From: Cornus controversa | Lineage: Eukaryota; Streptophyta; Magnoliopsida; Cornales; Cornaceae | DNA: 64,000 bases | Direction of reading: 5' to 3' | Assembly: GCA_026545225.1 (NCBI GenBank) | Contig: CM048846.1 | Coordinates: 50,770,270-50,834,269 of the forward strand | Part shown: piece by piece, positions 764 to 45,925 of the stretch | How the letters are laid out: every line of letters begins with the position of its first letter | Position numbering within the stretch: position 1 is the first letter of the stretch | Translations under genes and position numbers: made by a program | The notes under the pieces: model-generated | Database searches by the model: none | Told to the model about the DNA's origin: nothing | The model's input: the letters and a program-made list of their open reading frames with translations, nothing else

Positions 764-769
764 AAATTT

Positions 770-13300: not shown

Positions 13301-13994
13301 GGGCTGATTAGCTAGTCCCCATTTGAACTAATTTTTGGATTTATGTGGCATGAGTTATATATATGAATTATCACTTGTTCAATTTATTATATATATGTAT
13401 ACATTAAAATGTGAAGCATCACGCATGATTTATAAAACTTGATTGTTTATGGGTAAAAAACATGAATAATTGTCAAACTCAAGTTAGAGTAGAGATGGGT
13501 GGATCATTTCTATTGAACTATGGTGATCACGCCCTATTTTCAAACTCTTTTCAGACAAGGCACCAATGGAAGATGAGGTATGATTAGCTTGAAGGACCTT
13601 TTGGAATTATTTTGGACTTTTGGACTTTTGATATGTACATAGATGTCCATGTCGGCTTGTGGCATGTGGACTAAGTAGAAAGCATTGTATTTACACTTGA
13701 TTTATCTTGGTACACTTTAGTTTCAAATGTAATGACCATATATGGATCATATATAACTTTTGAAGTTGAATGGAAAAATGTTGATTTTGATTTCATTATG
13801 TTTAGACTTTGGATATGAATGCTTGGAGTGTGATTGATCATGAGTATGATTAAATGCTTGTGAGTGATGTAGGTTCCTTTCTTGCATGATTTTAGAGTTG
13901 TATGAATGATTATGATAGTAGAAGGGACTTAGAATGCCAAAAATGGCCAATTGCATAGTTGCAAGATTTTCTGCAGGTGCATCTGTCTGGGCAC

Positions 13995-14126
13995 TTCGAT
14001 GCATCGAAATGGTAGAAACGATGCATCGAAAAATCTACAGGATTTTAGAAAACCAAAAGTCTTGAGAGTTATTTTTGGACGATACTTGTGCGATGCATTG
14101 AAACCATCATTTTGATGCATCGAAAT
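13995..14126. repeat. Near-palindrome array B (core GATGCATC)
   Basis: Four copies of the type TTCGATGCATCGAAA: two tight copies at 13995-14030, then GCGATGCATTGAAA and TTTTGATGCATCGAAA after a 60-bp spacer. Confidence 0.8.
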
Positions 14127-16383: not shown

Positions 16384-17561
16384 TGTAGAGATCGTGACCA
16401 ATTTTGGCCGGTTTTGCATTTTTTGCATTATAATTGCCATAAATGCATTTTGAGTGGTGTTTGACATGTTTTGAATGTGGAAAACATGTTTGGGAAGTCT
16501 TTTTAAGGTTTTGGTAAGTTTTCGGGAGATTTGGAGAAGTTTGACTTTTTGGTCAAACCGAGGCTCGGGATACGACTTAAGTGGGCCCGGGAATCCGAAA
16601 AATTTCCAAAAATATTTATTTTTGGGAATGGCTTCGATGAAATTTTTAGAGATTAGAGGAAGTGATTTCGAGACCGTAGGAGTTTTCAGAATCGAAAAAG
16701 GAGTCCCGGAGGGTACGTTAAGTGGCCGGGGGCATTTTGGTCTTTTTGCAAGCCCTAGATATTTTAAATATCAGTGGCAGAGATATTCAGCCATATATCA
16801 CGCCTCTTTCTCTCTCTAAAGTTCTCCATCTTCAAAGCTCTCCCTTCTCTCTACATTTCGGACCCGTTCGGCTTGGATTCAAGACTTGCCGAAGGAGGGA
16901 GATACGTAGGGGACGGCTAGGGCTTCCCTTTGAACCGATCAAAGTGATGGTTCGGCAAGATAGACATCACTGGAATTTTGGTGAAGTGCTTGGAAGGTCT
17001 TCATTTTTGAGGTAGGGGTTCTTCTTCTCTTCTAATTGTCGATTCTAGGGTTTCGGGTGAAGAAGAGCGGTGTAGGTTGTGTTTCACATGCTTTAGGATG
17101 GTGAGAGGTGTGGAAAGTTGTGTTTTCTTCTTCTCTAGAGTCCTATCTTTTCACAATTGTGTATATTGTGTTGGTGGTAGCATGTGGGTTTGAAGTATGT
17201 GAGTGTAAGAAATTGATACATAGGCATTATATGCTCAATTTGATGTATATGTGAAAAAATGTGTACCAAGTGTCATATATGTGATTATATGTGAGAATGT
17301 GGTTATTGAATGCGTGTTAGTTCTATGTGGTAAAATTATGCGTTGAGGGTAGCATGAGTAAAATATGCTAATTTTAAAGTTGTATGCATATGAGATGATA
17401 TATGCATGTGTTTTACATATATGTGCTATATGTGGTGTGTGGTGATGGAAAATATGCTTGTTACTTCTTTCTAGTACCAATGAGCATGAAAATAAAATAT
17501 CATGTGTTTATGCATTCATATTGCATATATGGGAAGTTACGGGAAAAATGACGCAAATGAG

Positions 17562-17888
17562 GTACACGGGGCTTCGGAGTGGTCCAACCGTGTGGTGGAA
17601 TGTGGTGAAATTATCCACTATGTATGGCCCTCGGAGTGGACCCGCCATACTAAGGTTTAATGCCTAGGATCGGAGTATGTCCAATACTAATGACCCCTCG
17701 GAGTTGTCCCGGTCATAGGATGGTTATCGGAGAATGTCCATGATTTGTGAACCTCGGAGTTGCCCCCTCACTCTATGGTAATCCCATATATTGCTATGGT
17801 AGAACGACCTTTCGGAGTTGTCCCGGTCATTGGATAGTTATCGGAGGTGTCCAAGGTTACATGATCCTCGGAGCGGGCCAATCATGTA
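17562..17888 (+). repeat. Hairpin minisatellite with covarying stems
   Basis: Tandem units share a loop of the type CCTCGGAGTTGTCC. Their stems differ yet pair: ACACGG/CCGTGT, GTATGGC/GCCATAC, ATGACC/GGTCAT, GTGA/TCAC, TACATGAT/ATCATGTA. Shorter units with ATCGGAGAATGTCC lie between them. Confidence 0.8.
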
Positions 17889-18604
17889 GGGTATCGGATG
17901 AGGACCGAGAGAGAGAGCATTTTCTTTCCTTGATGCTTTTATGTTTGAACATGTTATACATGATTCGTGATATGTGCAATCCTCTTTAATTGCAATTATT
18001 GAAGTGTTTGTGAGATTGTGGATGTGGCATGTAGTGTATTCATATGCATTCCATGTAGGTCGTGTCGGGTCGGCACTTAGAAGGGTTGGGGAACCCTTAC
18101 TGAGCCGCAGTGGTGCTCACCCCTTTATTATAAACTCTTTTTACAGATAAAGCGCTGATGATGGATGGGACATGAGTGTCCAAGTGGATTCTAGTAGTGG
18201 TTTTGCTATCTTTTGGATGTTGCACATTTTGTGGTTATCCATGCCGGCTTGTGGCATGTGAATTCCTTTTTAGTTGTGGTTGTACTTTGGACATATGTAC
18301 TTTTGATGTATGTTTTGGATTTTAAACTTGTTGGGTGTGGAAAGACAACGGTTTAATTTATGTAATGCCCATGGTGGTACTTAATTCATTTGATGATGTT
18401 TTCCTTATGAATGGATGGTGTTTGTGAAAGAAAATGATTCATTTCGGTGTATGAATTCAATTATATATGTGATCTTGAGGGTGAGATTGGTGTTGGAACC
18501 TTCAATGTATGTTATTTATTATGTTTGAGGGGTTCTAGGATGATAGGATGTTGATTGGGCTTCAAATGAACCATGTATAGGGTTGTTGGAGGTCCCGGGT
18601 AGTG

Positions 18605-18829
18605 CATTTCGATCAATCGAGATGCCTATTTCGATCAATCGAAACCCCCATTTCGATTGATCGAAAGGGTGATGATTTATGGTGATTTTTAGAGTCCAGA
18701 AAGGAGCAATTTCGATCAATCGAGACCCCCATCTCGATCAATCGAGATATTGCAGGTCTGGGGTCCCGAGAGGGTGAAAATCTCGCTAGAATTTTGATCA
18801 ATCGAGATTCCATCTCGATCAATCGAGAT
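18605..18829. repeat. Near-palindrome array C (core GATTGATC)
   Basis: Seven copies of TTTCGATCAATCGA or its complement, for example TTTCGATTGATCGAAA, are separated by spacers of 5-45 bp. The spacers align with those of array G at 35101-35354, where the cores differ. Confidence 0.9.
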
Positions 18830-19344
18830 TACTATTCACAGCTTTTTCCAAAACTTCATTTCGGCGTAATTTCTTCGTTTTAGATTGGAATTGAGTGTGG
18901 TTTTTCTTGAACTTGAGTATTTTTCAATTCTCTATCCAATGGTGTAAGCCTCAATTTCAGATTCCAAACACAGAAAGTTTTGAGGCTCGAAAGTGAGTGA
19001 TTCTTAAAAGTGTGGGCAAGTAAATGTTCACTAAGGTGTGTGATTTGATGTAGGGCCCATGGGGAATTGTTAAGGTGGATTTGGGTGCATTCATATACAA
19101 GAATTGAGTTAAGCTTCCGCGGTGAATGAGGGTAATGAGGGCCTATTGGGCTAAATGGATGGTTTAACCTCCGGTTCTCCGAGAGTTGGAAATCGGGGCG
19201 TTATAGCATGGTATCAAACCTTGATACTAATGCATTGAGTGTAATTGAGATTGTTCATGGGGCTAAGTGAAAGGGTTCACACTCGGGATTCGGGGTCGGT
19301 CCGGGGGAGTCCCGGCGGTCCGGGTTTCGGGGCGTGACACTACT

Positions 19345-20283
19345 CATTCATGGTGATGATGAGACACTTGGAGAGCTTCCTCGTGTGGTGTGTGAGTTTA
19401 TGGACGTATTTTCAGGGGACTTGACACAGTTACCTCCTAAACGGGAAGTGGCGTTTGTGATAGATCTTGCTCCAGGTACTGCGGCTATTTCGATGGCACT
19501 GTACCAAATGACATTGGTTAAGTTAAAAAAGCTAAAGGACCAATTGGAAGAGCTGCTAAACAAGGAATTTGTATGTCGTAGTACTTCACCTTGGGGAGCT
19601 CCAGTTCTTTTTGGTAAGAAGAAGGACGGGTCTTTGCAGCTTTACATTGACTATCAAAAGTTGAATCAGGCGACGATCAAGAATAAGTATCTTTTGCCAA
19701 GGATGGATAACTTGTTTGATCAACTTATGGGTTCAAGATATTTCTCAAAGATAGATCTAAGAATGGGCTATTATCAGTTGGGGATTAGAGAAGCGGACAT
19801 TTAAAAAATTGATTTTTGCACATGATATGGGCACTATGAGTTTTTAGTGATGCCATTTGGTTTGATGAATGTATCGGCATCATTTATGGACTGAATGAAT
19901 AGATTGTTCAACGCTTACTTGGATAAGTTTGTGGTTATGTTCGTTGATGACATCCTAGTGTACTCGTCTTCGAAAGAGGAACACGAGGGGCACTTGAGAA
20001 TTGTATTGCAGCTTCTAAGAAAACCTCAATTATATGCCAAATACGAAAAGTGTGAATTTTGGCTAGTGGAGGTGAAATTCCTTAGGCATGTTATGTTCAA
20101 AGGAGGAGTTTCCGAAGATCCATCTAAGATAGAGGCGGTGATGAGTTGGAAAAGATCTAAGAGCATATTTGAGATACATAGTTTCTTGGGATTGGCTGGA
20201 TATTATCGAAGGTTTGTGAAAGACTTTTCAAGGTTAGCAGCACCAATAACAAAGCTTACCCAAAAAGAAGTGAAGTTTGTGTA
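19345..20283 (+). pseudogene. Tekay-like reverse transcriptase
   Basis: The protein resumes after the solo [72 protein letters not shown]. The catalytic FVDD motif is present in [18 protein letters not shown], and [20 protein letters not shown] ends the domain. In-frame stops occur at about 19802, 19828, 19892 and 20281. The enzyme would copy element RNA into DNA in the particle. The catalytic aspartates survive but the frame does not. Confidence 0.9.
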
Positions 20284-20284
20284 G

Positions 20285-20722
20285 AATGATCATTGCGAGC
20301 ATGCATTTAAGGAATTGAGGAGTCGGTTGACTTCGGTGCCAATTTTGATCATTCCGGAACATGGGTTGGGGTACACGATTTATTGTGGCACTTCACAACT
20401 CAATTTAGGATGTGTGTTAATGCAAACTGAACGAGTAGTGGCGTATGGTTCAAGGCAGTTGAAGACACATGAACAAAATTACCCGACACACGACTTGGAA
20501 TTGGCAATGGTGATCTTTGCACTTAAGGTGTAGAGATATTACTTGTATGGTGAGAAGTTTGAGGTATTCTCAAATCAAAAATATCTCAAATACATTTTCT
20601 CACAAAAGGATTTGAATATGAGACAACGGAGGTGGATGGAATACGTGGAAGATTATAACTTCGACTTGCAATATCATTTGGGAAAGGCCAATATGGTAGT
20701 GGATGCATTGAGTAGGAAGTCA
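20285..20722 (+). pseudogene. Tekay-like RNase H
   Basis: This follows the RT. Recognisable parts are [50 protein letters not shown] and, after a stop at 20531, YLYGEKFEVFSNQKYLKY and YHLGKANMVVDALSRKS. This is the end of the gypsy RT/RNase H module, which degrades the RNA strand during reverse transcription. One position usually Asp in the YSDAS motif reads CGTS. Confidence 0.85.
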
Positions 20723-22044
20723 TTTAGTGGCTTAGCAAGCTTAGTCATACGGGGGTGGAAGATGATGAAAGATATCTCAAAAATGGGATTACATTTTTGT
20801 GAGGATGATGGATCGACGATGTTATTTACTATTATTGCTCAACCAACCTTAGTGAGCCGAGTAATTGAAGAGCAGAGAAAGGATAGTGAGATTGAGGCTA
20901 TTCACACACGAATTTTGAGTGGCGAAGCAGTGGAAGGATGGACACTTCATTTAGATGAGAGCATGAAACTCAAAAGGAAGATGTTTGTTCCCTTAGCTTG
21001 TCAGGATGAGATTCTGAAAGATTTTCACAATTCAAGACTAGCAGTACATCCAGGTGGTACCAAGATGTATCATAACCTACGCCGATAGTATTGGTGGAAG
21101 GGTATAAAGAAGGATGTAGTTCAGTTTGTGGCAAGGTGCCTCACTTGTCAACAAGTGAAGGCCAACCATCAAAGGCCAGTGGGGTTGTTACAGCCATTGC
21201 CTATGGCTATTTGAAATTGGGAGCATGTCACTATGGAATTTGTGATGGAACTTCCAAGGTCAAGGAAGAGTCACGACGCAGTTTGGGTGGTCGTTGACAG
21301 ATTGACAAAAGTGGCTCACTTTATTGCTATCAGAGTGACCGATGATGTGGATACTCTCAGTAGATTATACATTAAGCAAATTCTTAGACTTCATGGTGTG
21401 CCAGTTTCTATTATTTTTGATAAAGACCTGCAATTTACATATTGGTTTTGGAAGAGTTTCCAAGCAGCACTGGACATAGGCTTTCATTTTAGTACAGCTT
21501 TCCATCCTCAGATGGATGGCTAGTCTGAGCGTACTATATAGATTCTGGAGGATATGTTGTGAGCATGTGTGCTTTATCTTTGGGGTAGTTGGGAGGTTCA
21601 CCTTCCAATGGTGGAGTTTGAATAAATAATAGCTATCAAACTAGCATTGAGATGGCTCCATTTGAGGCTTTATACGGTAGACCATGTAGGTCACCTGTAT
21701 GTTGGACTAAGGTCGGAGAGACAATTTCTTTGGGACCAGATTTAGTTCGAGAGACTCTAGAGAGATCAAGGTAATTCGACGGAGATTCTTTACAGCTCAG
21801 AGTCATCAGAAAAGCTATGACGATAGGAGGCGGCAACCTTTGGCCTTTGAGGTGGGGGATCATGTCTTTCTGAAGGTCTCGCCACGGAGAGGTTTGATGA
21901 GATTTCGTCGTAGTGGCAAGCTAGCGCCATGATTTATCAAGCCATTTGAGATTTTGGATCAAGTAGGAGAGGTTGCTTATCACTCGGCATTGCCACCGTA
22001 ATTGTCAAGTGTCCACAACATTATCCATGTGCCTATGTTGAGGG
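20723..22044 (+). pseudogene. Tekay-like integrase, C-terminus deleted
   Basis: The N-terminal HHCC zinc finger lies near 21010-21165 (HNSRLAVHPGGTKMY, ARCLTCQQVKANHQRP, with a stop and frame change). The catalytic core follows. The first catalytic Asp is replaced by Glu (TMEFVMELP), the second is kept (IIFDKDLQFT) and the Glu is kept after a stop (SERTI). The C-terminal domain reads to LSSVHNIIHVPMLR and then runs into LTR sequence at about 22038-22044 over the shared word GTTGAGG. The chromodomain expected for Tekay elements is therefore missing. Frameshifts lie near 21090, 21195 and 21600. The normal role is to insert the cDNA into the chromosome. Confidence 0.85.
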
Positions 22045-23440
22045 CTTCGGTTTGGACCGATCAACGTCTCCATTTCGTGAAGTTGAGAAAGTTAGGATTT
22101 CTCAAAGTTGGATTCAAAGCATAAGATTTGAGGTAGGGGTGCTAGACTCATCTTTACTTTGATTCTATAGGTCACATATTTGTGACATGAAAGATATGTT
22201 GAGATTTCTTAAGTTTAGGATCTTGTGTGTGTGTATGTATATATGTAAATATGATTTATGCTTATGTACATGTTAACATGCTTGTTAGGGCTCATATGTG
22301 TTGCATATGTGATATTGAGACTATATATGCTAATGGTTGAAACTGTGTTCATTTCATGAAAATGCATGAATCTGAGTTTCTATATAGAATGATGCATGAA
22401 AGATATGATTTTCTTGAAAAATGCATAAGCATGATGATTTTCATGATATGAGTGTATTGGCATTGTGACAAGCTTGGGATGAGATGGAAAAATGCATTGT
22501 TTTGATAAAAGCATTACATTGTGTGGATTTTGTGCATTTATTTGATAAGTGTACATTATGTGAAAAGCAAGGTTTTTGGGGCGTGACAACATTGAGAATT
22601 AAGGGGATGACACCTAGGGTGAAAGACCCAAGACTTGGCCAAGCGGATAGATATCCGTCAGAATAGTAAACCAAGAAGCGTAAGCAGAGTTTGGGTGCCG
22701 AAGAGACCCTTACTATGGAGGTGTGTGATAAATTCTACTATATTTAAATTCTTGGATATGATTATTGGAGATGTAAATTTATGCTTAGAATGATGTTTGA
22801 TGATGTTTTTATCATTCGTACATGTTGCGGGTGATATTTAGATGATTTCTAGGCTTTTAGATGAGTTTTGGAGCCTAAAAGTTGAGATTTTTGAGTCTGG
22901 GGTATTATGCTTTGACACTTGCGACGATACGTGTTCGATGCATTGCGACTTCGATGTATCTAACTCTCCAGTTCGATGCATCAAAGTTACTATTCACAAC
23001 ATTCTCCAAAATCTGTCCAAATTTCAATCGGGCATAACTTCTTCGTTTTAAATCGAAATTGAGTGTGATTTTTTTAAAATTGAGTATTTTTGAATGCTCT
23101 ATCCAATGGTGATGGTTTCAACACCAAGTTACAGTCACACAAAAAGTTGAGTTCTAGAAATTTAGGGGTTATGTATGTGTGGCTTGATGTGGGACTTTTT
23201 GAGGTTGGTTGTGGTTGAAGTTGAATTAGCACATCTATGTGCAAGAAAGAGGTAAGCTTCGGCTGTATTTGAGTGTAAAGAGAGAGTTCATTAGAGATTA
23301 ATGGATGGGTCACCCTTGATTTCTGGAGAACGAAAATTGGGGCGTGAAAACTTGCTATCATCGTGAGATTAGTAAGGTGAATTGGTGAGTGATAATCCAG
23401 TCACCCTTGATTTTTGGAGAATGAAAATTGGGGCGTGACA
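22045..23440 (+). mobile_element. 5'-truncated Tekay-like LTR (second LTR segment)
   Basis: It matches 28665-30753 of the 3' LTR but lacks the first ~540 bp. It ends GGGGCGTGACA at 23440, with a PBS (TGGTATCAGAGC) at 23444-23455. It holds the conserved hairpin at about 22664 and array D at 22934-22985 (three copies, core GATGCATC). A decayed PBS-like site is near 23350. Confidence 0.85.
22934..22985. repeat. Near-palindrome array D (core GATGCATC)
   Basis: Three copies: TTCGATGCATTGCGA, TTCGATGTATCTAA and TTCGATGCATCAAAG. They are followed by TTACTATTCACA, as in arrays C, F, G and H. Confidence 0.75.
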
Positions 23441-24880
23441 ACATGGTATCAGAGCTCTAGGTCAGAATACCTAGGGACGACGAGGAATGGTCATATCACA
23501 TGTAAGTTTAAGAGGATTAGGTCAAGTATCTGATACCAACAACTTGGTATCAGAGCTTAACCGGGTTTGAATACCTATGGACGATGGGAAAGGGTTAAGC
23601 CACATGTTGGATTGGAAGGATGTGATGGTTTTTGAATTGCTATTAAATCATTAGGTTTGAAAGTCTAGGCTATGAAATTCAGGGATATGAATACCTAAGG
23701 ACAATAGATAACGTATTGGTTTGGAAATGTGCAGTGGTTGGTAGTCACCTAAAGGATAGGTTTGATTACCTTTGGATGATAGTGGAATGATTAGCTTAGT
23801 GCAAGTGATCATAATGAAAGAACAATGTGTTGGTGTGTGTGACTGATTTTCATGTGGTAATACTCCCAAAGTTGGTTGAGTAAAAACTTTTGACTTGATG
23901 TTAAGTCTTGTTAATGGGTAACGAAAAATATTACAGAGAAGGTTGTGTGTGCTTGAGTCCTTATGGATACTTAGGGGCTTGTGTTACGTGGTTGATAAGT
24001 GTTATGCTAAGGTTGGCAATTGAGATCGAGATAAGAGACAAGGATGGCATATTGTCGGGGTTAGGCTAACGAGAAAAAATGGCCTATCTAGACATTTTCT
24101 TTGATTAGTGTTTCTCTTACAATGCGCCAGTTCTTGTGGTTGTTAAGTGGTTTCGTTCGAGTGACGATAGATAACAGATTACTGATGGAATGATTTCTGA
24201 TAGTAGAGAGGTCGAATGTATTTCCCTAGTTTCTAGCTCGTGGACTAGGGTGTTGATAGAGTTGCATGCATCTCATTCATTCATTTATATGCATTTACTT
24301 GTGCTTGTGCCTTGGGGCTAGAGGTGTTATCTTTGGAGCCACCATTGTCCATTGATACATCTATTGGGAGTGGAGTTACCTTGATTAGAATTTGACGATC
24401 TTACGAGATTTATATTGCGGAATGTCGATTGGTGTTCGACTTAGTGTTACTAGTTGTGACTAGTTTTGATATGAATATTCTTAGAAGTGATCTGGAAGGT
24501 AGTGTTGTTGTGATATGTTATGAGATAGTTAGAGTGTGACTTAAGGCACACTAGGAGGAGTGTAATTCATAATTTCAAAAGCTGAAATTGTGTGAGTATG
24601 ATGGCTGATTTGGGAAAGATTTTGAAATCTTGGTAGAGGTGTGACTATGTTTAGCCTTAGCGTTGAAATGCACTATTTGTGTTAAGACTATAGTGGAATG
24701 TGTTAGATGTTGAGAGTGTAATTCTTAATGATGTATGGGACTATGGAGTTATGATCCCTATTCATGTTATAGCATTAGGCAGGTAATTCTAGGAACCTAG
24801 AATGTTGATGGCAATGAGATTTGTGCGTCCTTGACATACAATGAGTCCAATGGAGTACTTGTGGGTGTTCTTGTTTCAAT
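23441..24880 (+). pseudogene. Internal region of unit 2: leader and protease remnant
   Basis: PBS and leader repeat the start seen at 14466, including a second TGGTATCAGAGC at about 23548. Protease wording appears at about 24215-24500 (LVSSSWTRVLIELHASHSFI, CALGLEVLSLEPPLSIDTSI), parallel to 15940-16200, but the DSG motif is lost. Gag is not recognisable here. The rest, to 24880, shows nothing I can identify. Confidence 0.6.
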
Positions 24881-25911
24881 GATGATGTAAGCTAAGTAGA
24901 AAATATTGTAATTGCATTTGAATTATGTTGGTATGCTTCAGTTTCAAATGTAACGACTATGTGTCAATCAAGTGTGACCTTTCGGATGTGAAAGTGGTTA
25001 GTTTTGAATTCCATTATGCGTGTTATAAGGATTTAATCATTTGTGAATCACATCCTTATACTTGGATTATATGTATAACCTCGTGAGAATATTGTGAATG
25101 TTTTGAATCCAAGGATAATGTAGTTTTGAGGTATAATTGAGAGATTTGTGGATTTCATATTTACAAGGCTTGAAATCATGGATTTGTGTAGTTTTGACCA
25201 TGTTTAGGGTTACAAATGAGTGTATGATTATAGGGATGACATATGGACTTGTGAAAATTAGTCATTGAGGCATTTTTGAACTTTTGGTTAAGGGGTCTCT
25301 GCAGCAGTTGACCGAAACTTGGACATGAATGCTTAGAAATGTGGAATTATGATTGGGTTGTGATAACGATGTTCTATAGTATGTTTTTGATGTATTTCAA
25401 TCTATGGAGGATGCAAGAAAATATTGAGTTAAAATTGGTTAAGTGTATGGACATAGTGTCACTTGATAAGTGACTGAAGGAAACAACCGAAAGGGACTTC
25501 GATGCATCGAAGTCCATATGTCGATGCATCGCACGATCGATGCATCTAAACCTCAGGATCGATGCATCGAAAAATCTGTAGGATTTTGGAAAACCAAAAG
25601 TCCTGAGAGTGGTTTTTGGACGATACTTCATCGATACATGATCGATGCATCGTAGCTTCGATGCATCGAAATGAGCATTTCGATCCATCAAAATGCAACC
25701 CAGGCAGAAATGTTGAAATGACTTAGAATGGACATGGGGAGTTATGTATCGACCCCAATAGGACTTGTTGAATCTGCAATGTATGGTCATATGTACGTGC
25801 ATGTGATTTAAACTTCTGCAAAGAGATTTATGATTCAATAGGTGATTGGTGGTTTGGGAAGGGTAACGCCGTTCACCCTTGGATTCAGGAAGTACCGAGA
25901 ATCGGGGCGTA
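24880..25911 (+). mobile_element. Third Tekay-like LTR segment (5'-truncated)
   Basis: From about 24880 the sequence matches 13665-14462 of the 5' LTR (AAGTAGAAAATATTGTA, TTTCAAATGTAACGAC) and ends in ATCGGGGCGTAAAG at about 25911. It contains the longest GATGCATC array. The left border is approximate. Confidence 0.7.
25497..25693. repeat. Near-palindrome array E (core GATGCATC)
   Basis: About eight copies of TCGATGCATCGAA, several perfect, two fused head to tail (ATCGATGCATCTAAAC, ATCGATACATGATCGATGCA). The 60-bp spacer AAAATCTGTAGG...GGACGATACTT is shared with array B. Confidence 0.85.
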
Positions 25912-26076
25912 AAGAATAAGTACATATTACATGGAATACACTTATGTGCTTACTTGTTTGGTATGACATGCTACTTGTGAAGTGGCTTAGCACGACATTG
26001 TGTATGTATTAGAAAAGTTGGTCAAAATGTTTATAACTTGAAATTTAAAGTGTCTTCTTGTTGTCAATACAGCAAG

Positions 26077-26998
26077 ATGCCACCACGGAGGATTCACGAG
26101 GGGGCAATACTTCCTATGGATGGACAACAGTTTATGCGAAGGATGGTTACGACTGTACAACAAGTTGCTAGGGAAATACGAGAGGAGGCTCAGGCTCGAC
26201 CTGGAGCAACTCTTAGTATGATGATGTTGGAGTTGGAATATGTCAAGGAGTACAATCTACCATTCTATGCAGGAGGGCCTGATCCTGTGGTGGTAGAAGA
26301 TTGGTTTGATGAGATGGACGAACTCCTTATTGTACTGGAGGTAAAGGACGACTTGAGAGTGAAAGTAGCAGCTCATCACCTTACTGATGGAGTGAGCCGT
26401 TGGTGGAAGTTTATTAAAAATTACCACGACATTGAGGTAATGGGTTGGGATATGTTCGAAGTGTTATTCTTCAAGAAGTATTTTCTAGTAATGATAAAGG
26501 ATAACTTGAGACAAGAATTTAATGATTTGTTTCAAGGGGATATGACAGTTACAGAATACGGGACCAAGTTCACATCTTTGGCTCATTTTGCACCAGAAGT
26601 GATTCCTACTGAAGAACTTAAGGTGAAGAAGTTTGTGGGAGGTCTCTAAACTACCATAAGGGATATGGTGACAGTTTTAGGTTCGATTAGTAGCAGAAAA
26701 GGATAGCCAAGATACTAGGACTCGAGTTAAGGATACCGAGACATTATTTGGTAATCAAGGGAAGAAGAGATGTAGAGAGGATCTACTATCTTCTTAAGGG
26801 CAACAACAGGTTGGCTTGACACCATCAGTGCCTTTGCCCATTAGACCTTCACGATCGAGAGTGGTGTGTCACCACTGTCAGCAGCTGGGTCACTACAAAT
26901 CTGAGTGCACCTGCATACAGTTGGCACCAGCAGTGGAGCATATTTGTTATCGTTGCCACCAGACTGGTCACATCAAGGTAAACTGTCCTCTGGGATAG
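26077..26998 (+). pseudogene. Tekay-like gag (unit 3) with two zinc knuckles
   Basis: From ATG 26077 (MPPRRIHEG) the frame is open to 26649: QFMRRMVTTVQQVAREIREE, GGPDPVVVEDWFDEMDELL, DGVSRWWKFIKNYHDIEV, FFKKYFLVMIKDNLRQEF, TVTEYGTKFTSLAHFAPEV, VKKFVGGL. This is the best preserved gag in the window. Two CCHC knuckles follow at 26870-26998 in another frame, CHHCQQLGHYKSEC and CYRCHQTGHIKVNC, both with intact C-C-H-C spacing (2-4-4). Gag binds and packages element RNA; the knuckles are the nucleic-acid-binding part. The family normally has one or two knuckles. A stop at 26649 separates the parts. Confidence 0.85.
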
Positions 26999-28124
26999 AA
27001 TGTGCAGAGTGAGATAAGGTCTCAACAAGGTACTACTCAGTTGCAACCAGAGCAATCTGCTCAAGGTTCACTAGCAGTGAGGAGAGTCGACCTTATCACA
27101 TCTAATCTACAGTCCAGGCATCAGAGGACTCCATAAGGAGCGAGGTATTATTATAGTTTCTAGCTTATGAGCCAGAGAATTTAGTCATTGAGTTATTTGT
27201 TGCCTTTAATAGAACATGTTTAGTTTTATGTTAATTGTGGTACGTCGTATGCTAGGTATTTAGCATGATATGCATAATAGTTGTTACATGTTCAGGGTGT
27301 GTTAGTGTCTGCATCAATGGGTGCACTGTATATGTGGGCGCCTCATTATCGCCTAGGGAATTTTAGTTTGAGAATTTGGTGAACTTCACTAGAGGTTTGA
27401 GCTTGAGTGAGGTTGTAATAGTTGAGATATATGAGTTGTGATAGACTCTAGTTGTGGGAGTCTAGAACTTTGAGGAAGTTCTTAAGCGTGATTTTTACGT
27501 GAAAAATGAGGAATGGGTTATGATCCTAAAAGATCAAAGTTTCGATTGGCACATGAGAATTGACTCAGTTGTGGGACACAACTAGTCATGACATTTTAAG
27601 AGGATGGCGGTGGAAATACCATTAGCTGATTAATTGATAATCGAGGAAAGAAGGTGGTGCGTAAGTAGTGAGATCTTCACCGATTTTATTTTCCTATGGA
27701 ATATACCTTATGGTACTAATGGAAAGAAAGGATCCAAGGATCAGTTATGAGACTTAGAGAATAAGGATTTCATGTGTTTTGGGGAATGTGATAGGACTAG
27801 TTGAGAATTGAGTTATTAATCCTCAGGAAACATTGACTATATGTTATGAACGAGATGTGTAAAATTAGACTATGAATTTGACATCATTTGGGGGTGTACT
27901 AGCAGTCAGATATTTTAGGAGAATATAGAATTGAGTCATATGATGTGATGACCGAAAACCTTGTTGGTTAAGGAGCGAGGGTCGTCTGTTGGACGTCGGC
28001 GAGTTCATAATTGTTACCAGTGGTAAATAGAGCTAAATCAAGTCACTGATAGTGTTGTGGCAACACCATGAGATTATGAGTGTGTTCTAATTTCGAGGAG
28101 AAAATTCTTATAAGGTTATGAGGT
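26999..28124 (+). pseudogene. Degenerate pol leftovers of unit 3
   Basis: Weak similarity to the protease region is possible around 27160-27400, but no motif is intact. From about 27400 to the 3' LTR at 28125 I see nothing recognisable. A purine-rich CGAGGAGAAAA near 28095 may be the remains of a polypurine tract. Confidence 0.35.
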
Positions 28125-30753
28125 TGTTGAGACCGTGCCCAATTTTGGCCGATTTTTGAATTTTTCATCATTTATTGCTTTAAACAAATTTTAAATGATG
28201 TTTAACATGTTTTGGAATACGGGAAACATGTTTAGAAGGTTGGAATATGGTTTAGGAAAGTTTTGAAAACTTTCAAAAAAGTTTGACTTTTTGGTCAACG
28301 GGGGTCCCAGGATGAGGTTAAGTGGGTCCGGGAATTTCGGGAAAATTCTGAAAATTTTATTTTTGACTAAGGACTAAACGAAATATTTAGAGTGTTAAGG
28401 AAGTGATTTCGAGTCCAATGGAGTTTTTGAGAATTATTTCGGATGTCGAGAAGGTACATTAAGTGGCTCGAGGGTAAAGTGGTCATTTCGCGACCCTAGG
28501 GTTGAGATAAATATCAAAAAGGGTTTGAGATATTTCATTTTACGGATCTCTCTCTCTCTCTCTCTACCTCTCCCACTACATCTCTCTCCCTTCCCTCTAG
28601 ATTTTAGGTCACTTGAGGTGTGATTTGTAAGATCCCGATGAAAGAAAGTGTATAGAGGGCGTTGAGGGCTTCGGTTTGGACCAATCAATGTCTCCATTTC
28701 GTGAAGTTGAGAAAGGTAGTATTTCTCAAAGTTGGATTCAAATCATAGGATTTGAGGTAGGGGTGCTAGACTCATCTTTACTTTGATTCTATAGGTCACA
28801 TATTTGTGACATTAAAGATATGTTGAGATTTCTTGAGTTTAGGATCTTGTGTATGTGTTTGTATATATATAAATGTGATTTATGCTTATGTACATGTTAA
28901 CATGCTTGTTAGGGCTCATATGTGTTGCATATGTGATATTAAGACTATATATGCTAATGGTTGAAATTGTGTTCATTTCGTGAAAATGCATGAATCTGAG
29001 TTTCTATATAGAATGATGCATGAAAGATATGATTTTCTTAAAAAATGCATAAGCATGATGATTTTCATAATATGAGTGTATTGGCATTGTGACAAGCTTG
29101 GGATGAGATGGAAAAATGCATTGTTTTGATAAAAGCATTGCATTGTGTGAATTTTGTGCATTTATTTGATAGGTGTACATTATGTGAAAAGCGAGGTTTT
29201 TGGGGCGTGACAACATTGAGAATAAAGATATGGGGATGACCCCTAGGGTGAAAGACCCAAGACTTGGCCAAGCGGATGGTGAATCTGTCGAAATAGTAAA
29301 CCGAGAAGCGTAAGCAGAATTTGGGTGCCAAAGAGACCCTTACTATGGAGGTGTGTGATAAGCTAGTCCCCTTTGAATTGATTTTCGAACTTATATGGCG
29401 TGAGTTTTACATTGAATTGTGACTTGCTCAACTTGTTATATGTATGTATACATTGGAATGTGAAGCATCACGCATGATTTATAAAACGTGATTGTTTATG
29501 GGTAAAAAGTATAGATATTTGTCATTTAGATTGTAATGATTTCATATGCATCCATGCATGGCCGCCTGAGTTAGAGTAGAGTTGGGTGGATCATTCCTAC
29601 TAAGTCGCAGTGGTGCTCACCCCCTATTTATATAAGCTTTTCAGATAAGGCAACAATGGAGGATGAAGCATGAATAGCTCAATGGACCTTGTTGAGTACC
29701 ATTTTTGGACTTTTGACCTTTTAAGATGTAAATAGATGTCCATGTCGGTTTGTCGCATGTAGACTATGTTAATGATGTTATATTTACATTTGATTCATGT
29801 TGATATACTCTAGTTTCAAATGTAATGATCATATATGGATCATATGTGATTTGTGGATTTTGAATGGAAGAAGTTGGTTTTTATTCCATTATATTTCTTG
29901 GATATGATTATTAGAGATGTAAATTTATGCTTAGAATGATGTTTGATGATATTTTTATCAGTTATACATGTTATGGGTGATATTTAGATGATTTCTAGGC
30001 TTTTAGATGAGTTTTGGAGCCTAAAAGTTGAGATTTTCGAGTTTGAAATAGTATGCTTCGACACTTGTGGTGATACATGTTCGATGCATCGCAGTTTTGA
30101 TGCATCTAACTCCCCAATTCGATGCATCGTAGTTACTATTCACAGCATTCTCTAAAATATGCCCAAATTTCAATCGGGCATAACTTCTTTGTTTTAAATC
30201 GAAATTGAGTGTGATTTTTTTTAAAATTGAGTATTTTTGAATGATCTATCCAATGGTGATGGTTTCAAAACCATGTTCCAGTCACACAGGAAGTTGAGTT
30301 CTGGAAATTTAGGGGTCATGTAAGTGTGGCTTGATGTGGGACTTTTTGAGGTTGGTTATGGTTGAAGTTGAATTAGCACATCCATGTGCAATAAAGAGGT
30401 AATTTTTTGTTGTATTTGAGTGTAAAGAGAGAATTAATTAGAGATTAATGGATGGGTCACCCTTGATTTTTGGAGAACAAAAATCGAGGCCTGACATTGA
30501 GTCTGCAATGCAAGGTCGTATGTACGTGCACACGATTTAAGCTTCCACAATGTGATTAATGATGAGATTAGTGAGGTGAGATGGGGCAATTGAGTAAGTG
30601 ACAACCCAATCACCCTTTGTTTCTAGAGAAGGAAAAATTTAGGCATGATAACATGGTATCAGAGCGTGATATCAAAGAGTGATTCTGGTTAGGGTACGGA
30701 TGATAAGCACGAGTCACCCTTGGTTTTCGGAGAATGAAAATTGGGGCGTGACA
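28125..30753 (+). mobile_element. 3' LTR of the Tekay-like compound element (2.63 kb)
   Basis: It starts TGTTGAGACCGTGCCC and ends GGGGCGTGACA. It contains a TC-rich stretch at about 28548-28600, the conserved hairpin at about 29293, array F at 30080-30133, and a PBS-like TGGTATCAGAGC at about 30656, roughly 100 bp before its end. There is no gene; ORFs on the minus strand at 28434-29331 are shadows that repeat in each LTR copy. Confidence 0.85.
30080..30133. repeat. Near-palindrome array F (core GATGCATC)
   Basis: Three copies (TTCGATGCATCGCAG, TTTGATGCATCTAAC, TTCGATGCATCGTAG), directly followed by TTACTATTCACAGCA. Confidence 0.8.
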
Positions 30754-30758
30754 ACACT

Positions 30759-31120
30759 CATCACTCTTCTGTATATCTGTATATATGCGCCGAATGATAG
30801 TGATTGCCCACCCTTCCTTATGAATTTCTTTATCTATTTATAGGTCCACCCTTTAGGGTTTCATTTGACCTAACAAACTAATTTACAAAACTGCCCTTTT
30901 AATAAACAAACCAATTTGCCCTTTGAATTGAAATGCCCAGAACGTCCTTGCAACTAAGTTAGAGCATAAATATGAAAAAATATAATGAAGCATGACAATT
31001 AATTAAATCAAAAAATTAAGGATAGTAAATGCATTTAATGTAAAGTTACACTAATACCCCTACAAATCCTTTTGATATTAAAACCTGGGCAAACATACTC
31101 ATGGGCTTCCCGGACCATCA
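30759..31120 (-). mobile_element. Copia 3' LTR, proximal part
   Basis: This continues the LTR interrupted at 8201 and ends GGACCATCA at 31120. It matches 45389-45750 of the 5' LTR closely. On the minus strand a polypurine stretch, AAAAGGAAAAAGGGGGAGA, directly precedes it (31123-31141). Confidence 0.85.
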
Positions 31121-31122
31121 AT

Positions 31123-31141
31123 CTCCCCCTTTTTCCTTTTA
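31123..31141 (-). promoter_or_regulatory. Copia polypurine tract
   Basis: On the minus strand AAAAGGAAAAAGGGGGAGA ends two bases before the 3' LTR start TGATGGTCC. This is the expected plus-strand primer site. Confidence 0.75.
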
Positions 31142-31244
31142 CTGTCAAAAACCTAACCTCTTACCTTAACTTCTTTCTCCCCCTTTTTGACAATGAAAGT
31201 CAAAAGGGTAATAAAATAGAGAGCTAGTGGGGAGGATGGGTGAG

Positions 31245-32572
31245 ACCTAAGGCAGTGTGGAGAGTCTCAAATCTGGTCAAAGGCAAGGGTTAATTTGGTC
31301 ATAATATCTGCTAATTGTGCCTCATTATTGATATACTCGATGAGTATATTGCCTTCTTGCACATTATCCCTCAGGAAGTGATACTTGATGTCTATGTGTT
31401 AGCTTCGATTATTTAAAGTGTGATTTTTACTTATAGTAATTAAACTTGGATTATCACAGAAAATGGTAGTAGGAGTAGAAAATTCAATGCCTAGATCTGT
31501 GAGTGTGGTTCTCATCCACAATGCTTGAGAGCAAGCTTGTGTAGCTGAAATTTATTCACCTTCTAAGGTGGAGAGAGACACAGAAGTTTGTTTCTTGCTA
31601 AGCCATGAAACCACATTATTTGCAAACATATAACAACATCTTGAGGTATTTTTTCTATCAATTTGTGAACCACCCTAATCAGTATCGGAGAAGGCCATAA
31701 ACGACAACACTGAAGAGGGGGTATAATGCAATCTGAGTCTAGTGGTGCCTTTAATATATCTAAGGATCCTTTTGACAGCTTTCAAATGTGAGACTCTAAG
31801 ATCACTCTAAAATCTAGTAACTAAGCCAACTGCAAACATGATGTTAGGTCTTGATCTAGTAAGGTATAGAAGACTTTCTATCATGGACCGGTAAAGTGTA
31901 TTATCAATGGGGTCAGTGGTACATTCTTTCGACAATTTTGTGGTGACACACATGGGAGTAGACATTGGTTTTGAATCATCCATGTTAACTTTTTTTAGAA
32001 TTTCTTTTGCATACTTCTCTTGAGATATGAATATACCTTTAGCCTGTTGAATGATTTGAAATCCTAAGAAGTATTTCAAACTGCTTAACATAGACATCTC
32101 AAACTTAGATTGTATAAGTGCAGCAACGTGTGTGGTTTGACTTGAGTGTGAACCATAAAACATTATATCATCCACATAAATTTGTAAAATTAAAAAGTTT
32201 GAGTTAGAGTGCCTCACATAAAGTCCTAAGAAGTATTCCAAAGAGGAAAGGAGTGGAGTTTGTCATACCATGCCCTTGGAGCTTGCTTGAGTCCATAGAA
32301 AGCTTTTTTGCGCTTAAGAACATGTTGAGGATGCTTCATATCGAAAAATCCTTTAGGTTGATCAATGCATACTTCTTCTGATAGATCACCATTTAGAAAA
32401 GCAGACTTGACATCCATCTGATAGACCATTACTTTCTTGTAGTATGCAAAAGAGAGAAGCATTCGGATGGACTCTAATCGAGCAATTGGAGCAAAGGTCT
32501 TGTCGTAGTCCAATCCAGTAATTTGATCAAATCTTTTATAGACCAATCTAGCTTTGTTTCTGATGACGGTTC
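31245..32572 (-). pseudogene. Copia RT (main part) and RNase H
   Basis: Reading leftward from 32572: VIRNKARLVYKRFDQITGLD, KTFAPIARLESIRMLLSFA, YQMDVKSAFLNGDLSEEV, KAFYGLKQAPRAWYDKL. After a frameshift near 32235 comes the catalytic YVDD (LQIYVDDIMFYGS) and EKYAKEILKKVNMDDSKPM, with RSMIESLLYLTRSRPNIMFA. RNase H extends to about 31245, ending in a decayed HIDIKYHFLRDNVQEG and EAQLADIMTKLTL. These are the copia polymerase modules; wording is closest to SIRE-like elements. The first 27 codons of RT lie at 37725-37807, beyond the nested solo LTR. Multiple stops. Confidence 0.85.
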
Positions 32573-34017
32573 TGATGAACCTAGAGGGGGAGGGGGTGAA
32601 TAGGTTCTTCAATTTTTCTTCCTAATATTGCAAGTTTGGCTGGCACATGCAATCACACAATTATGGACACACGGATTTATAGAGGAAAACCCCAGGGTGG
32701 GGTAAAAAAACCTCTTCAAACTGAGCTCCACTATGTCTGAAAGGGTAGTACCATAATCTTTAAATCACTCTCTCACTCACCCAACTCTCCACATAGTCAC
32801 TCCAGCTCTCGACCCAATTCACAGGCCTGAACCACTCTAACCAAATCTCATAACAACTTTTCCGCTCTCAACCTGTAGAGACCGTGACCAATTTTGGCTG
32901 GTTTTGCATTTTTCGTATCATAATTGCCATAAATGCATTTTGAATGGTGTTTAATATGTTTTGAATGCCAGGAACATGTTTGGGAAGTGTTTTAAAGGTT
33001 TTGAGAAATTTTTGGGAGATTTGGAGAAGTTTGACAATCCAGAAATTTTTTAGAAATATTTATTTTTGAGAATGGCTTAGATGAAATGTTTAGAGAGTTA
33101 AGGAAGTGATTTCGATCCCGTAGGAGTTTTTGAAATCAAAAACGGAGTCCGGGAAGGTACGTTAAGTGGCCTGGGGGTGTTTTGATTTTTTCGCACCCTT
33201 GATGCCTTTTAAACACATGGCTGAGAGTGATTCTAGCCATTTCACACGGTTCACTCTCTCTTTAACATTTCCCTCTTCTTCTCTCTACATCTCTCTACAT
33301 TTCGGACCCGTTCAGCTTAGATTCGAGACTCGCCGAAGGAGGGAGATACGTAGGGGACAGCTAGGGCTTCGGTTTGAACCGAACAAAGTCGCATTTTAGC
33401 AAGGTTGACATTGCTGGGATTTTAAGAAGTGCTTGGGAGGCCTTCATTTTTGAGGTAGGGGTTCTCCTTCTCATCTATTTATCGATTCTAGGGTTTCGGG
33501 TGAAGCGGTGAGAGATAAAGGTGTGTATTGCATGTTTTAGAGATGTAAGAGGGGTGGGATGAGGTGTTCTTCTTCTTCTCTTAAGTTTCTTGTATGCAAT
33601 AGATGTGTATCTCCTAGTATGCATGATGTGAGGGACAAATGCATGACAATGTGAAAGAATGAGAGCATATATGCTTATGTTCTTAATGTGGCGTACATGT
33701 GTAATTATGTGTAAATGTGTGACATATATATGGTAGGTGTTGTCCTATGAATTAAATTCATGCTATCTCTATATAGAATATGTGTGCATTGGTGAAACAT
33801 GACTAAAATGTGATTATGTGAAGTTTTGTGGGCATATGCTAATTATGCTAGGGTTTGCATATATTGGTATGTATATATGTGGGTTGGTGAATATGAAATG
33901 CATACTATGTTCCTATATAACTAGCTCATGTATTGTAAAGCATGAATCTTAAATGCTTGATATTTATATGTTTGAAATGCATATATTGGGGCCGTTGTGA
34001 GAAAACGAGGAAGTGTG

Positions 34018-34325
34018 GTTGAATTGCCTAGAGTAGGTCAATACTTGGTGAGGGTGTTGGAGTGGTTAAGTCACCTTGGAGGAGGTAAATTCTCGGTGAT
34101 CAGGATCTAACTACCTTAGAGTAGGTAAATACTCTGTGAGGATTCCAAAAAGATGCCCAATCACTTTGGAGTAGGTAAATATTCGGTGATTGTGGTTTAC
34201 TCACCTTGGAGTAGGTAAATACTCTGTGGGAATGTAAAAAGAATAGGGGCCAAGTCACCCTGGAGTAGGTAAATACTAGGTGACGGTGGTCTATCCACCT
34301 TGGAGTAAGTAAATACTCAGTGGCG
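34018..34325 (+). repeat. Hairpin minisatellite in LTR G
   Basis: Seven units centre on TTGGAGTAGGTAAATACTC. Stems include CAATCAC/GTGATTG and GTCACC/GGTGAC. One unit has CCAC pairing with GTGG. A few units have a broken pair. Confidence 0.78.
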
Positions 34326-35100
34326 GAGTTGGAATGGTGTGGAAAGTGTCTCGGTTACATGATTTGGTCAAGAATCATGTTAAGGTTTCGGGTTTAGTCC
34401 GAGAGAGAGACCGGCGTATGAAATTGCTTTCATTTCAAATTATGAAGCATGATATGTGTTTAATGCATCTCTATTTATATATATATGCATTGTTATGAAT
34501 GAACATGATATATGTTAAATGATATGTGAAATGTTGTGACATGCATCTATGTAGATTGTGTCGAGTCGGCACTTAGGTGAGTTGGGGTATCTCTACTGAG
34601 CCGTAGTGGTGCTCACCCCTTTATTCTAAACTTTTTTATAGATAAAGCGCCGATGATGGATGGCACATGAGTGTCCAAATGGAACTCTAGTAGTGTTTGT
34701 GCTATCTTTTGGGATGTTGCGCATTTTGTGGCTATCCATGCCGGCTTGTGGCATGTGACTTCCTTTTGAGTTGTGGTTATATTTTGAACAAATGTACTTT
34801 TGATGTATGTATGAGATTATAAGCTTGTTGGGTATGGAAAGACAACAGTTTAGTTTATGTAATGGCCATGGTGGTATTTACTTCATTTGATGATGTTTCA
34901 TGATGAATGGATTGTGGTTGTGAAAGAGAATGATTCATTTTAGTGTACGATTCACTTATGAATATGATTTTGAGCATGTAATTGATGTTGGTATCTTTCA
35001 AGTATGTTATGGATCATGTATGAGAGGTCCTAGGATGATAGAATGAGGATTGGGCTCCAAATAGACCATGTATAGGGTTGTTGGAGGTCCTGTGGAGAGC

Positions 35101-35354
35101 ATTTCGATTGTGCAAAATGCCTATTTCGTGCAATCGAAACCCCCATTTCGATTGTGCGAAGTGGTGGTGAATTATGGTGATTTTTTGGGTCTAGACAGGG
35201 GCAATTTCGCACAATCAAAATCCTCATTTCGATTGTGTGAAATATTACAGGTTCAAGGTCCCGAACAGGTGAAATTTTCGTACAATCAAACTTTTTTTCG
35301 CACAATCGAGATACTAGTTTCGCACAATTGAAATCCAATTTTTGCACAATCGAA
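35101..35354. repeat. Near-palindrome array G (core GATTGTGC)
   Basis: Nine copies of TTTCGATTGTGCGAA or its reverse complement. The first copies alternate in orientation and the last four are reversed. Spacer sequences match array C almost base for base (for example GCCTA, ACCCCCA and ATTATGGTGATTTTT). Confidence 0.9.
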
Positions 35355-37427
35355 GTTACTATTCACGGCAATTGTCCAAACTTCGATTCGATATAATTTC
35401 TTCGTTTTAGATCGGAATTGAGTGTGATTTTTTTTTAAATTGAGTATTTTTGGATTCTCTATCCAATGGTGTAGGTCTCAACTTCAGATTCCAAACACAT
35501 GAAGTGTTGAGTCTTGGAAGTTGGTGTTTCATGAATGTGTGGACGAGTAAACCCCCACTAAGGTGATATGATTTGATGCAAGGCCCATTGGGATTGCATG
35601 AGTGTAGTATATATTGTTCATGGGGTTGAGTGAACGGGTTCACACTCGGGATTCGGGTCAGTCCGGGGGAGTCCCAGCGGTCCAGATTATGGAGCGTGAT
35701 AGCATGGTATCAGAGCGTAGTACCTTATCGTGAGTAAAGAGGGTCTATTGGGACTAATGGACTGGTTAACCTCTGATTTCCCGGGAGTCGGGAAATCGGA
35801 GCATTACACAACCCATCCCAGGCTTCCCAAAGCCCAAGCTATCTCTCACCACAATCACTCACACTCCCCCTATCCAAAGTATCCCAATACTTGGACTATA
35901 CATAGTGATACTAGAGTTAATTCAATGTAATGAACAACAACTCTTCAAGCTTTGATTATTTATCTTCAAGGTCGATTTGTAAATCTTCAAGCTTTGATGG
36001 TTAGTCTTCAAGGTCCAAACTGATAATGACACGGACACTTGACTTCTTGGCAGATAAATGACATTCGAACTCTTGCAATGATAGGCTTCAATAAGTACAC
36101 CCTTAAAGTGTAGCTACAACGAATTTGTAGAAGCCCGCTCTATAAATGAATCTTGTTCTTAGCTTCTTGAAAAATCATTCAGCTAGGAATTTACTCCGGA
36201 CAGTGGTCCTGGTATTTCTTTGTCTTTGTACCTGTTTTTAAAATGGACACAATTGCAACTAGAGTAGAAATTAGTAGCACAAGCAGTTCAAAATATAAAG
36301 AGCATGAACATAATAAAACATTAATATTTTAAGACAAACAAATCAGCAATATAATTCAATACAAATAGCCCACTACTTCAGCACATTTAAGTCCACAAAT
36401 TAGCAATACAAAAATTCTAGAATCAGGGAAATTAGAATCCCAAACAGTAATATTAAAATTCTAGAATCAGCAATATTCAAATTCCAAAATTAGTAAAATT
36501 TGAGTTTTAGAAATCAGCTATTTAGATCAATAAATTCAGCAACACTAGTTCATCAACACACAACAATGATTCCAGCAATTTTAGAACACGAAAATCAAAT
36601 TATGGCATATCAAATACAGAATAAATTCGTGCACCTGTGATTTATGTGTGTCAACAACAAAGCCTTAACAAGTGCGCTTATGAGTGTGAGTGAATATATG
36701 TAGTCAACCATTATAGATCATTTGATATGTAAAATTGAAAGATAGAAGTATGAAGAGATTTATTCCAATTTTATGAATCTATTCAAGTGACTGAGTTTCA
36801 ACTAATGAACCCAAGAAGAACTATGAATGATAACCCAGTAGATGAAACCAATAATAAAGACCCAAAAGACAGAACCACAATTGAAGTTGGGATTCTTTTT
36901 AGAGAACCAATGAAGCTGAGATTCCATGTTCTGAATCTATGAAGCTGAGGTTTGCATATACTGAATCAACAAATAAGATGAACATTTGAAGAACCGTGAA
37001 AGAAATCCATTACCAAAGTCTCATCTTGAATCAGCATGAATGACAGGACTTAGATAGAGATTCAGTTTGTAATGGCGAAGATGACTGGACTGCGCTCATC
37101 TAACGATGCTGGAGATCATAATTCTCATAATTGTTGTTGTCGGCGATGAAGCTCCACCCGATCTGCAGTCATGGAGTCACGGTCCTCTTCCATAGATTTT
37201 TTGAACCGAGAGCAAGACAAGCTCTCTCTATATCAATGCTTCAATCTCATGTATACCCAATCTCATGCCTTCTCTACCTGTATTTCTTCTCTCACTATAT
37301 CTCTCTCTCACTCACTTACTCTCTTATCTTATTCTTTCCAGCGACTCACCCTCTCCTTTAATCAGCCAAGAAAGAGACATTTTATATCATAATCTTTTTC
37401 TTTTTCTTTTTTATTTCATTTTAATAA

Positions 37428-40590: not shown

Positions 40591-40601
40591 TTGATACTTG
40601 T

Positions 40602-40652
40602 TCGATGCATTGAAACTTTGATGCATCAAAATCATCACTTTGATGCATCAAA
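40602..40652. repeat. Near-palindrome array H (core GATGCATC)
   Basis: Three copies (TTCGATGCATTGAAA, TTTGATGCATCAAAA, TTTGATGCATCAAAG), followed by TCACTATTCACAACA. Confidence 0.78.
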
Positions 40653-45750: not shown

Positions 45751-45755
45751 CCATT

Positions 45756-45925
45756 ACGATTTATCATAATTCCAAGTTAAAATGGAGGCCAATTTTAGTG
45801 CGATTACGATTATCCTACGAGACATCTATGATTACTCGTAATTTATGATTAATCGTAACCTCAATTACGATTCTCTATAATGAGTGATATGATTAATCGT
45901 AATTTAATTTACGATTAATCTTATT
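45756..45925. repeat. Near-palindrome array I, right part (core GATTAATC)
   Basis: Seven or so copies, for example ATGATTAATCGTAAC, ATGATTAATCGTAATTT and TTTACGATTAATC, with arms TTACGA/TCGTAA instead of TTTCGA/TCGAAA. Confidence 0.78.

Follow-up and report, generated by a model that had tools for sequence, protein, structure and literature searches.

Arrays of a 16-bp repeat unit in long terminal repeats (LTRs) of plant retrotransposons were analyzed starting from a 64,000-nucleotide window of the Cornus controversa genome (GCA_026545225.1, 771.7 Mb; contig C2 [CM048846.1], C2:50770270-50834269). The units fall into two classes and, in sequence alignments, the class is switched at the same unit positions, between homologous spacers, in three non-homologous regions: the LTRs of Tekay-type elements (a label from the preliminary description of the window, given there to elements such as solo LTRs C and G), the LTRs of Athila-type elements, and an Athila-type internal array. 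The arrays are probably multicopy sites for a dimeric, sequence-specific DNA-binding factor, encoded by the host or by an element, that unrelated elements track.

The 16-bp units obey a single rule, TTTCG-h1-YR-h2-CGAAA. A C-class unit has two CGAT half-sites (AT/AT), and a G-class unit has one CGAT and one CGCA (AT/CA). The C-class 14-mer TTTCGATCAATCGA has 16,286 copies in the genome, both strands counted, against 2 for a reversed-pattern control; TTTCGNNNNNNCGAAA has 16,878 sites (control, 629), and the G-class site YTCGCAYRATCGAR has 5,440 (control, 5). A caller that looks at the arms and places no constraint on the core recognized 211 clustered units in 24 loci and eight window arrays (161 AT/AT, 40 AT/CA, and 10 other), while a wider caller, which leans towards known cores, recognized 326 units in 43 arrays, including 271 AT/AT and 41 AT/CA. 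No CA/CA unit occurred among these 326 units from fetched and window arrays or among 128 in a G-selected sample. The center was a YR step (CA, TG, TA, or CG) in 249 of 257 AT/AT units (14 GC-center units set aside), in all 41 AT/CA units of the wider caller, and in 115 of 116 AT/CA units of the G-selected sample. GC centers were confined to six of the 43 arrays (B, D, E, F, H, and L039). Unit starts lie 22 bp apart in 117 of 283 intervals, 21 bp apart in 45, and 16 bp apart in 35. Fixed half-sites around a free YR step at the dyad are expected for a dimeric protein bending its site where the DNA is flexible. A 200-kb systematic sample of contig C1 contained no array with at least three units.

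C and G were initially described as solo LTRs whose arrays align spacer by spacer but differ in their cores, and this holds: units 1 to 5 and their spacers align base by base without gaps, with identities of 83.6% (51/61) in the spacers and 62.5% (25/40) in the central 8 bp of the units. Identity was 85.8% (482/562) in the 5' flank, 81.9% (194/237) in the 3' flank, and 72.5% (58/80) over entire units. The further statement that seven copies had changed alike is correct as to the concerted change but not as to copy number, which is nine in the G array. The difference between C and G lies in the half-site (CGAT versus CGCA), and the central two bases vary within each class (CA, TG, TA, and CG). 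The ends of the two LTRs (19190-19339 in C and 35620-35808 in G) each contain two tail modules, in opposite order; each module closes with an LTR-end-like motif, followed in one of them by the primer-site-like TGGTATCA.

Comparison was extended to 59 fetched loci (L numbers; window arrays have the prefix w), comprising 24 from C-class and any-core pattern lists, 12 from BLAST of the C flank (40 of 2,958 candidates scored), 20 from a G-class list, and 3 neighbors. Among Tekay-type LTRs, the alignment comprises 14 C-class copies (12 close to C, plus L053 and L058 of a divergent subfamily) and, with G-class units at the same positions, wG, L043, and L044. The three G copies form a clade in the flank tree (support, 0.999). 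Among Athila-type LTRs, the window contains a G-class copy, overlooked in the earlier inventory of window arrays, whose counterparts are L001, L003, L029, L031, L032, L035, and L037. It is approximately 70% identical over its length to L001 and L003, in which the array at the same place is C-class. Further G-class Athila-type LTR copies are L064, L066, L067, L073, L079, L082, L083, and L085. The third region is the Athila-type internal array, C-class in L033 versus G-class in L065, L072, and L078, with homologous spacers. When units were masked, the loci of the first sample formed three separate groups at an E value of 1e-6, and wA was linked to the Athila-type group solely by matches of 30 to 32 bp.

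The changes within units follow a pattern. In all 11 aligned LTR units (Tekay-type C versus G and Athila-type L003 versus the window LTR), exactly one half differs from AT. That half is CA in 10 of them; in the remaining one, the second unit of G, it is TG, against CA in L043 and L044. The CA half is on the right in Tekay-type units 1, 3, and 5 and on the left in unit 4 and in unit 2 of L043 and L044; in Athila-type LTRs it is on the right in units 3 and 5 and on the left in units 1, 2, 4, and 6. Because the changed half is now left and now right, copying of one mutant unit does not explain the switch, whereas selection for a site working in either orientation does. None of 200,000 runs of a neutral simulation, which treats units as independent and is a guide only, was as extreme as the observation in either lineage (in the Tekay-type, exactly one AT half paired with one CA half in four of five units).

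Concerted evolution without selection, in which a mutated unit spreads by gene conversion, slippage, or template switching during reverse transcription, is very unlikely to have produced this pattern, although unit number does differ among copies (six to nine in C-class Tekay-type copies, with extra units in L037 and L058) and LTRs do recombine in blocks. L053 and L058 are mosaic LTRs that are still C-class, with a 3' flank like that of the other C copies (4% different) but a 5' flank and spacers that differ by 41% and 40%, respectively. However, spacers retain position-specific sequence, so copied tracts would have to be no longer than 16 bp, and direct-orientation copying would not yield a CA-bearing half that differs by position. 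Nor would unselected copying repeat one base change in three unrelated regions or align the class of LTR and internal arrays within one element.

Units diverge out of step with the sequence around them. The main C-class LTRs and the divergent C-class L053 and L058 differ by 40% in spacers and 18% in units, while C-class and G-class Tekay-type copies differ by 20% in spacers and 28% in units. C-class and G-class Athila-type LTRs differ by 36% in flanks, 28% in spacers, and 23% in units, so that in this lineage only the half-sites are changed and the units as a whole are no more divergent for it.

Alternatively, the G-class array could have arisen once and moved between Tekay-type and Athila-type elements by recombination. 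G-class units and their 22-bp spacing are the same in both lineages, LTRs recombine in blocks, and L076 (C1:8729400-8729850) has a pure G-class array in a flank nearest to C-class copies (88 to 91% identity over ~150 bp), making it either a recent switch or a recombinant. Nevertheless, G-class and C-class arrays within each lineage share the spacers and unit positions of that lineage, and the window Athila-type LTR, with units masked, has no match to any Tekay-type row at an E value of 1e-6. Transfer of a single G-class array is therefore regarded as highly improbable.

Class is nearly pure within arrays. Among the fetched loci, 30 are pure AT/AT, 19 are pure AT/CA, 9 are mixed, and 1 (L045) has no recognized unit. 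All nine mixed loci are G-class arrays with a single called AT/AT unit each, and no AT/CA unit occurs in the 30 AT/AT loci. Free mixing of core types, which the preliminary description associated with drift or gene conversion without selection, was not seen in AT/AT loci, and mixing in G-class arrays took this limited form. In the wider-caller set, 3 of 43 arrays (one an artifact) were mixed, compared with a mean of 26 and a minimum of 18 over 5,000 label shuffles. The 20 G-selected loci were assigned by unit-masked BLAST to Athila-type LTRs (5), Athila-type internal arrays (3), LTRs near C and G (3), and other Tekay-type relatives (7), with no match for 2. L045 (C1:2756350-2757050) and L047 (C1:2818400-2819050) are related LTRs (82% over 167 bp); L047 has C-class units, and in L045 their place is taken by GCCGACCGA-like repeats that may represent an additional, more remote class of site.

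The lineage of the window LTR, L001, and L003 is called Athila-type on the basis of predicted coding content, as L003 lies 4 kb from L008, which encodes an integrase (PF00665; 56.3 bits) and an extra open reading frame (ORF) matching PF20167 (E value, 2.5e-9; 37.7 bits, under the Pfam cutoff of 45). In L008, an internal array of 14 units (1499-1879) adjoins the integrase and sits between it and the extra ORF, approximately 690 to 1,070 bp before the ATG of the latter (start at 812, minus strand). The Athila-type LTR array, by reading the sequence, lies in the first quarter of the LTR, approximately 120 bases ahead of a TATA-rich stretch. Judged by this predicted layout, both positions are places for enhancers.

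Class agrees between LTR and internal arrays in three Athila-type elements (one C, two G) reconstructed from the distances between arrays. In the C-class element (C1:998-1010 kb), LTR array L003 and internal array L008 are both C-class, and the second LTR array, at 1010 kb, is known from C-class pattern hits only. L083, L065, and L066, all G-class, share one orientation and are spaced comparably (4.0 and 7.6 kb), with one AT/AT unit in L065; L083 was fetched at its predicted place, and L066 is 89% identical to it. The third element has the G-class arrays L072 and L073, which share one orientation and are separated by 4 kb; L085, also G-class, lies 11 kb from L072, beyond the expected distance. 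For internal array L078, an LTR array was absent at the four predicted places (L086 to L089). No internal array of the window's own Athila-type element was found at C2:50762001-50766500, and that stretch had no match to the collected Athila-type loci.

From unit grammar, near-pure class, parallel switching, and class agreement in three Athila-type elements, we infer binding of a protein, its dimeric form, and any effect on transcription or silencing. Such sites would occupy non-coding stretches of LTR retrotransposons, namely the LTR and the segment ahead of the extra ORF, each unit presenting two 4-bp half-sites about a flexible YR step. The repeated CGAT of C-class units would resemble the site of a homodimer, and CGAT plus CGCA that of a heterodimer or an altered dimer. 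Many sites would render an element responsive to the factor, and a change in specificity would then be followed by every site: if the available factor changed, unit after unit would have one of its half-sites, left or right, replaced under selection, and the spacers would go on drifting at the background rate. As both classes are found in Tekay-type as well as in Athila-type elements, such a factor would act across families, as a host protein or as one element's protein used by others, and the same two half-sites in both lineages suggest one shared source of factors.

A sequence-specific factor had been proposed in the preliminary description by analogy with the VANC anti-silencing proteins of VANDAL transposons. 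The proposal of a factor gains from the near-pure classes, the three-region switch, the change of either half, and the YR step kept at the dyad. The factor may or may not be element-encoded and VANC-like, and a code common to Tekay-type and Athila-type elements favors one that acts across families. The PF20167-like ORF is only a candidate for a motif-binding protein. It is conceivable, though rather unlikely, that a VANC-like system operates in these LTR retrotransposons, with nuclear proteins from Athila-type extra ORFs (some as homodimers, others as heterodimers with a second specificity) reading the arrays in the LTR and ahead of their own gene and keeping cognate elements active, and with Tekay-type elements copying the code so as to use these proteins too; each new half-site would then be a new insulated channel in an arms race.

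Several observations weigh against a dimeric DNA-binding factor tracked by unrelated elements. All fetched loci except the 12 from BLAST of the C flank are within the first 13 Mb of contig C1, and one genome is represented. Copies of a family are related, so that label shuffles and the neutral simulation overstate independence. The clade of the three G copies is lost in a tree of 130 downstream columns that includes the B rows, where wG groups with the latter. AT/CA units occur in 28 fetched loci, nine of which have one AT/AT unit as well; in L030 and L042, additional AT/AT-like stretches, in decayed form, escaped the caller. The arrays of paired elements, except L083, were found through class-specific lists. 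The only possible disagreement seen is G-class LTR L082, located 7.7 kb from C-class internal array L038; because L082 and L037, the C-class LTR that lies beyond L038, are only 67% identical, L082 probably belongs to a different element. Finally, RNA folds of the arrays are far more stable than dinucleotide shuffles (z of -5.44 for C, -7.67 for G, and -5.35 for the window Athila-type array).

Such folding would be expected under selection at the RNA level, with units pairing in the transcript (hairpins, genome dimerization, or a structured leader) and partners changing together, as the preliminary description also suggested. Complementary partners are available, since G-class units are found in both orientations, and in maize the palindrome clusters of Sireviruses show an excess of mapped small RNAs (Bousios et al. 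2016, cited in PMC10760457). However, any repeat present in two orientations folds well, and z-scores do not discriminate. Pairing requires matching partners rather than one sequence common to all units, and G-class units are not self-complementary. Furthermore, outside GC-center arrays, 207 of 257 AT/AT centers are CA or TG, which break self-pairing, while AT and GC centers, equally good for pairing, are absent. The choice of center and the loss of symmetry in G-class units argue against pairing as the selected property, and this weaker fit makes RNA-level selection an improbable source of the classes.

Repeated palindromes in plant LTRs have precedents, and what seems new is a shared, switching half-site code; palindromic Sirevirus repeats and VANC motifs were known already. 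Repeated motifs of Sireviruses are palindromes that number 8 to 32 per element; they lie in the LTR, and nine elements have them as well in the linker preceding the ENV-like gene. They differ in sequence by element, have been proposed to be cis-regulatory, and share CGG-CCG, with Tnd-1 alone having ACAATCGATTGT (Bousios et al. 2010, PMC2829016). The arrays described here similarly have further copies in the internal region upstream of an extra gene (14 units in L008). Unlike the Sireviruses, which are Ty1/copia elements, the array-bearing elements are of Ty3-type, judged for the Athila-type internal array by the adjoining PF00665 integrase and PF20167-like ORF, as in a published sunflower Athila element, and for C and G by the Tekay label of the preliminary description. 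The half-sites are CGAT and CGCA rather than CGG-CCG, C-class and GC-center units are palindromic or nearly so but G-class units are not, and parallel class switches affect homologous positions in lineages that are unrelated. In maize, palindrome clusters lie in the cis-region of the Sirevirus LTR, and the same palindrome is common in Helitrons (PMC10760457); the readout there was small-RNA mapping (Bousios et al. 2016, as cited in that paper), whereas the arrays here are known from sequence.

VANC21 and VANC6 target motifs differ by at least 2 nucleotides, and the VANC6 motif also occurs in an unrelated transposable element, AT9TSD1 (PMC5735166). The arrays resemble these motifs as short repeats in non-coding regions of transposable elements that differ among related families and are common to unrelated elements. 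VANDALs, however, are DNA transposons with a known VANC gene, and their motifs spread by tandem repeat formation (PMC5735166, PMC10398659); here the units changed by substitution at fixed spacing, both classes are common to two retrotransposon lineages, and the factor is hypothetical. Extra ORFs of sunflower Athila and Tekay have predicted nuclear signals and unknown function, and PF20167 was reported for an Athila extra ORF (PMC11728184), comparable to the location of the internal array here between the integrase and a PF20167-matching ORF. The passages of that paper on extra ORFs name no target motif or array, and a link between ORF and array is proposed here. Among the matches listed in literature on palindromic repeats in Tekay, Athila, and other LTRs, a scope mostly outside the subscription literature, none concerned such arrays or class switching in Ty3-type LTRs, and a text search for CGATGCATCGA gave four papers, of which none dealt with retrotransposons, as judged by title and start of abstract. 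A protein search for array-bearing plant ORFs, with frames read across the C and G arrays, gave no match, nor did a scan of viral contigs for the LTR pattern and the paired-unit pattern (0 matches).

With thousands of natural copies, two discrete specificities, and homologous positions in unrelated elements, these sites could provide a direct route to a protein on which plant retrotransposons depend or by which they are controlled, and a way of watching the specificity of that factor change. The purpose of repeated palindromes in plant LTRs, an old question, could thereby become a binding experiment, for which C-class and G-class arrays with common spacers are a built-in control.

Table 1. Repeat arrays and associated LTRs in the window (window positions)
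Feature	Position	Strand	Description
Athila-type LTR	768..2165	-	No relation to C/G outside the array
G-class array in Athila-type LTR	1866..1979	-	6 units
B array	13994..14125	+	Center GC (CGATGCATCG)
Solo LTR C	16384..19339	+	Ends TGTAGAG...TGACA; 5-bp duplication CTACT on either side
C array	18607..18828	+	7 units of 16 bp, AT/AT half-sites throughout (C-class)
C array unit starts	18607, 18629, 18651, 18710, 18732, 18792, 18813	+	
D array	22933..22986	+	Center GC, decayed
F array	25497..25693	+	Center GC
E array	30079..30132	+	Center GC
Solo LTR G	32874..35808	+	Ends TGTAGAG...TTACA; 5-bp duplication CAACC on either side; same family as C
G array	35102..35355	+	9 units, mostly AT/CA half-sites (G-class)
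G array unit starts	35102, 35124, 35146, 35205, 35227, 35276, 35296, 35318, 35340	+	
H array	40600..40655	+	Center GC, decayed
A array of outermost LTR	45754..45924	+	Arms TTACG/CGTAA, degenerate; one more copy at 6037-6052

The remaining window arrays were as first described in one respect, with GATGCATC present in B, D, E, F, and H (some copies decayed). The form TTACGATTAATCGTAA ascribed to the outermost LTR has no exact copy in the window, where copies with one to three mismatches only occur, at 6037 and within the A array. Two candidates were rejected: an AT/CA unit called in wF is an artifact at the junction between two GC-center units, and the alignment of L030 and L042 with wD and wE was too poor to support a switch from GC-center to G-class.

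Other features were noted in the window. Imperfect repeats of 40 to 90 bp (CTTGGAGTAGGTAAATACT-like) occur in several LTRs (9940-10140, 34030-34330, and 39030-39290). A tandem array with a 57-bp period and CTCGAG motifs (49680-50251) has no connection to the half-site arrays. On the minus strand, an ORF at 54577-55227, possibly a host gene, encodes a GeBP-like DNA-binding domain (PF04504; E value, 3.4e-12).

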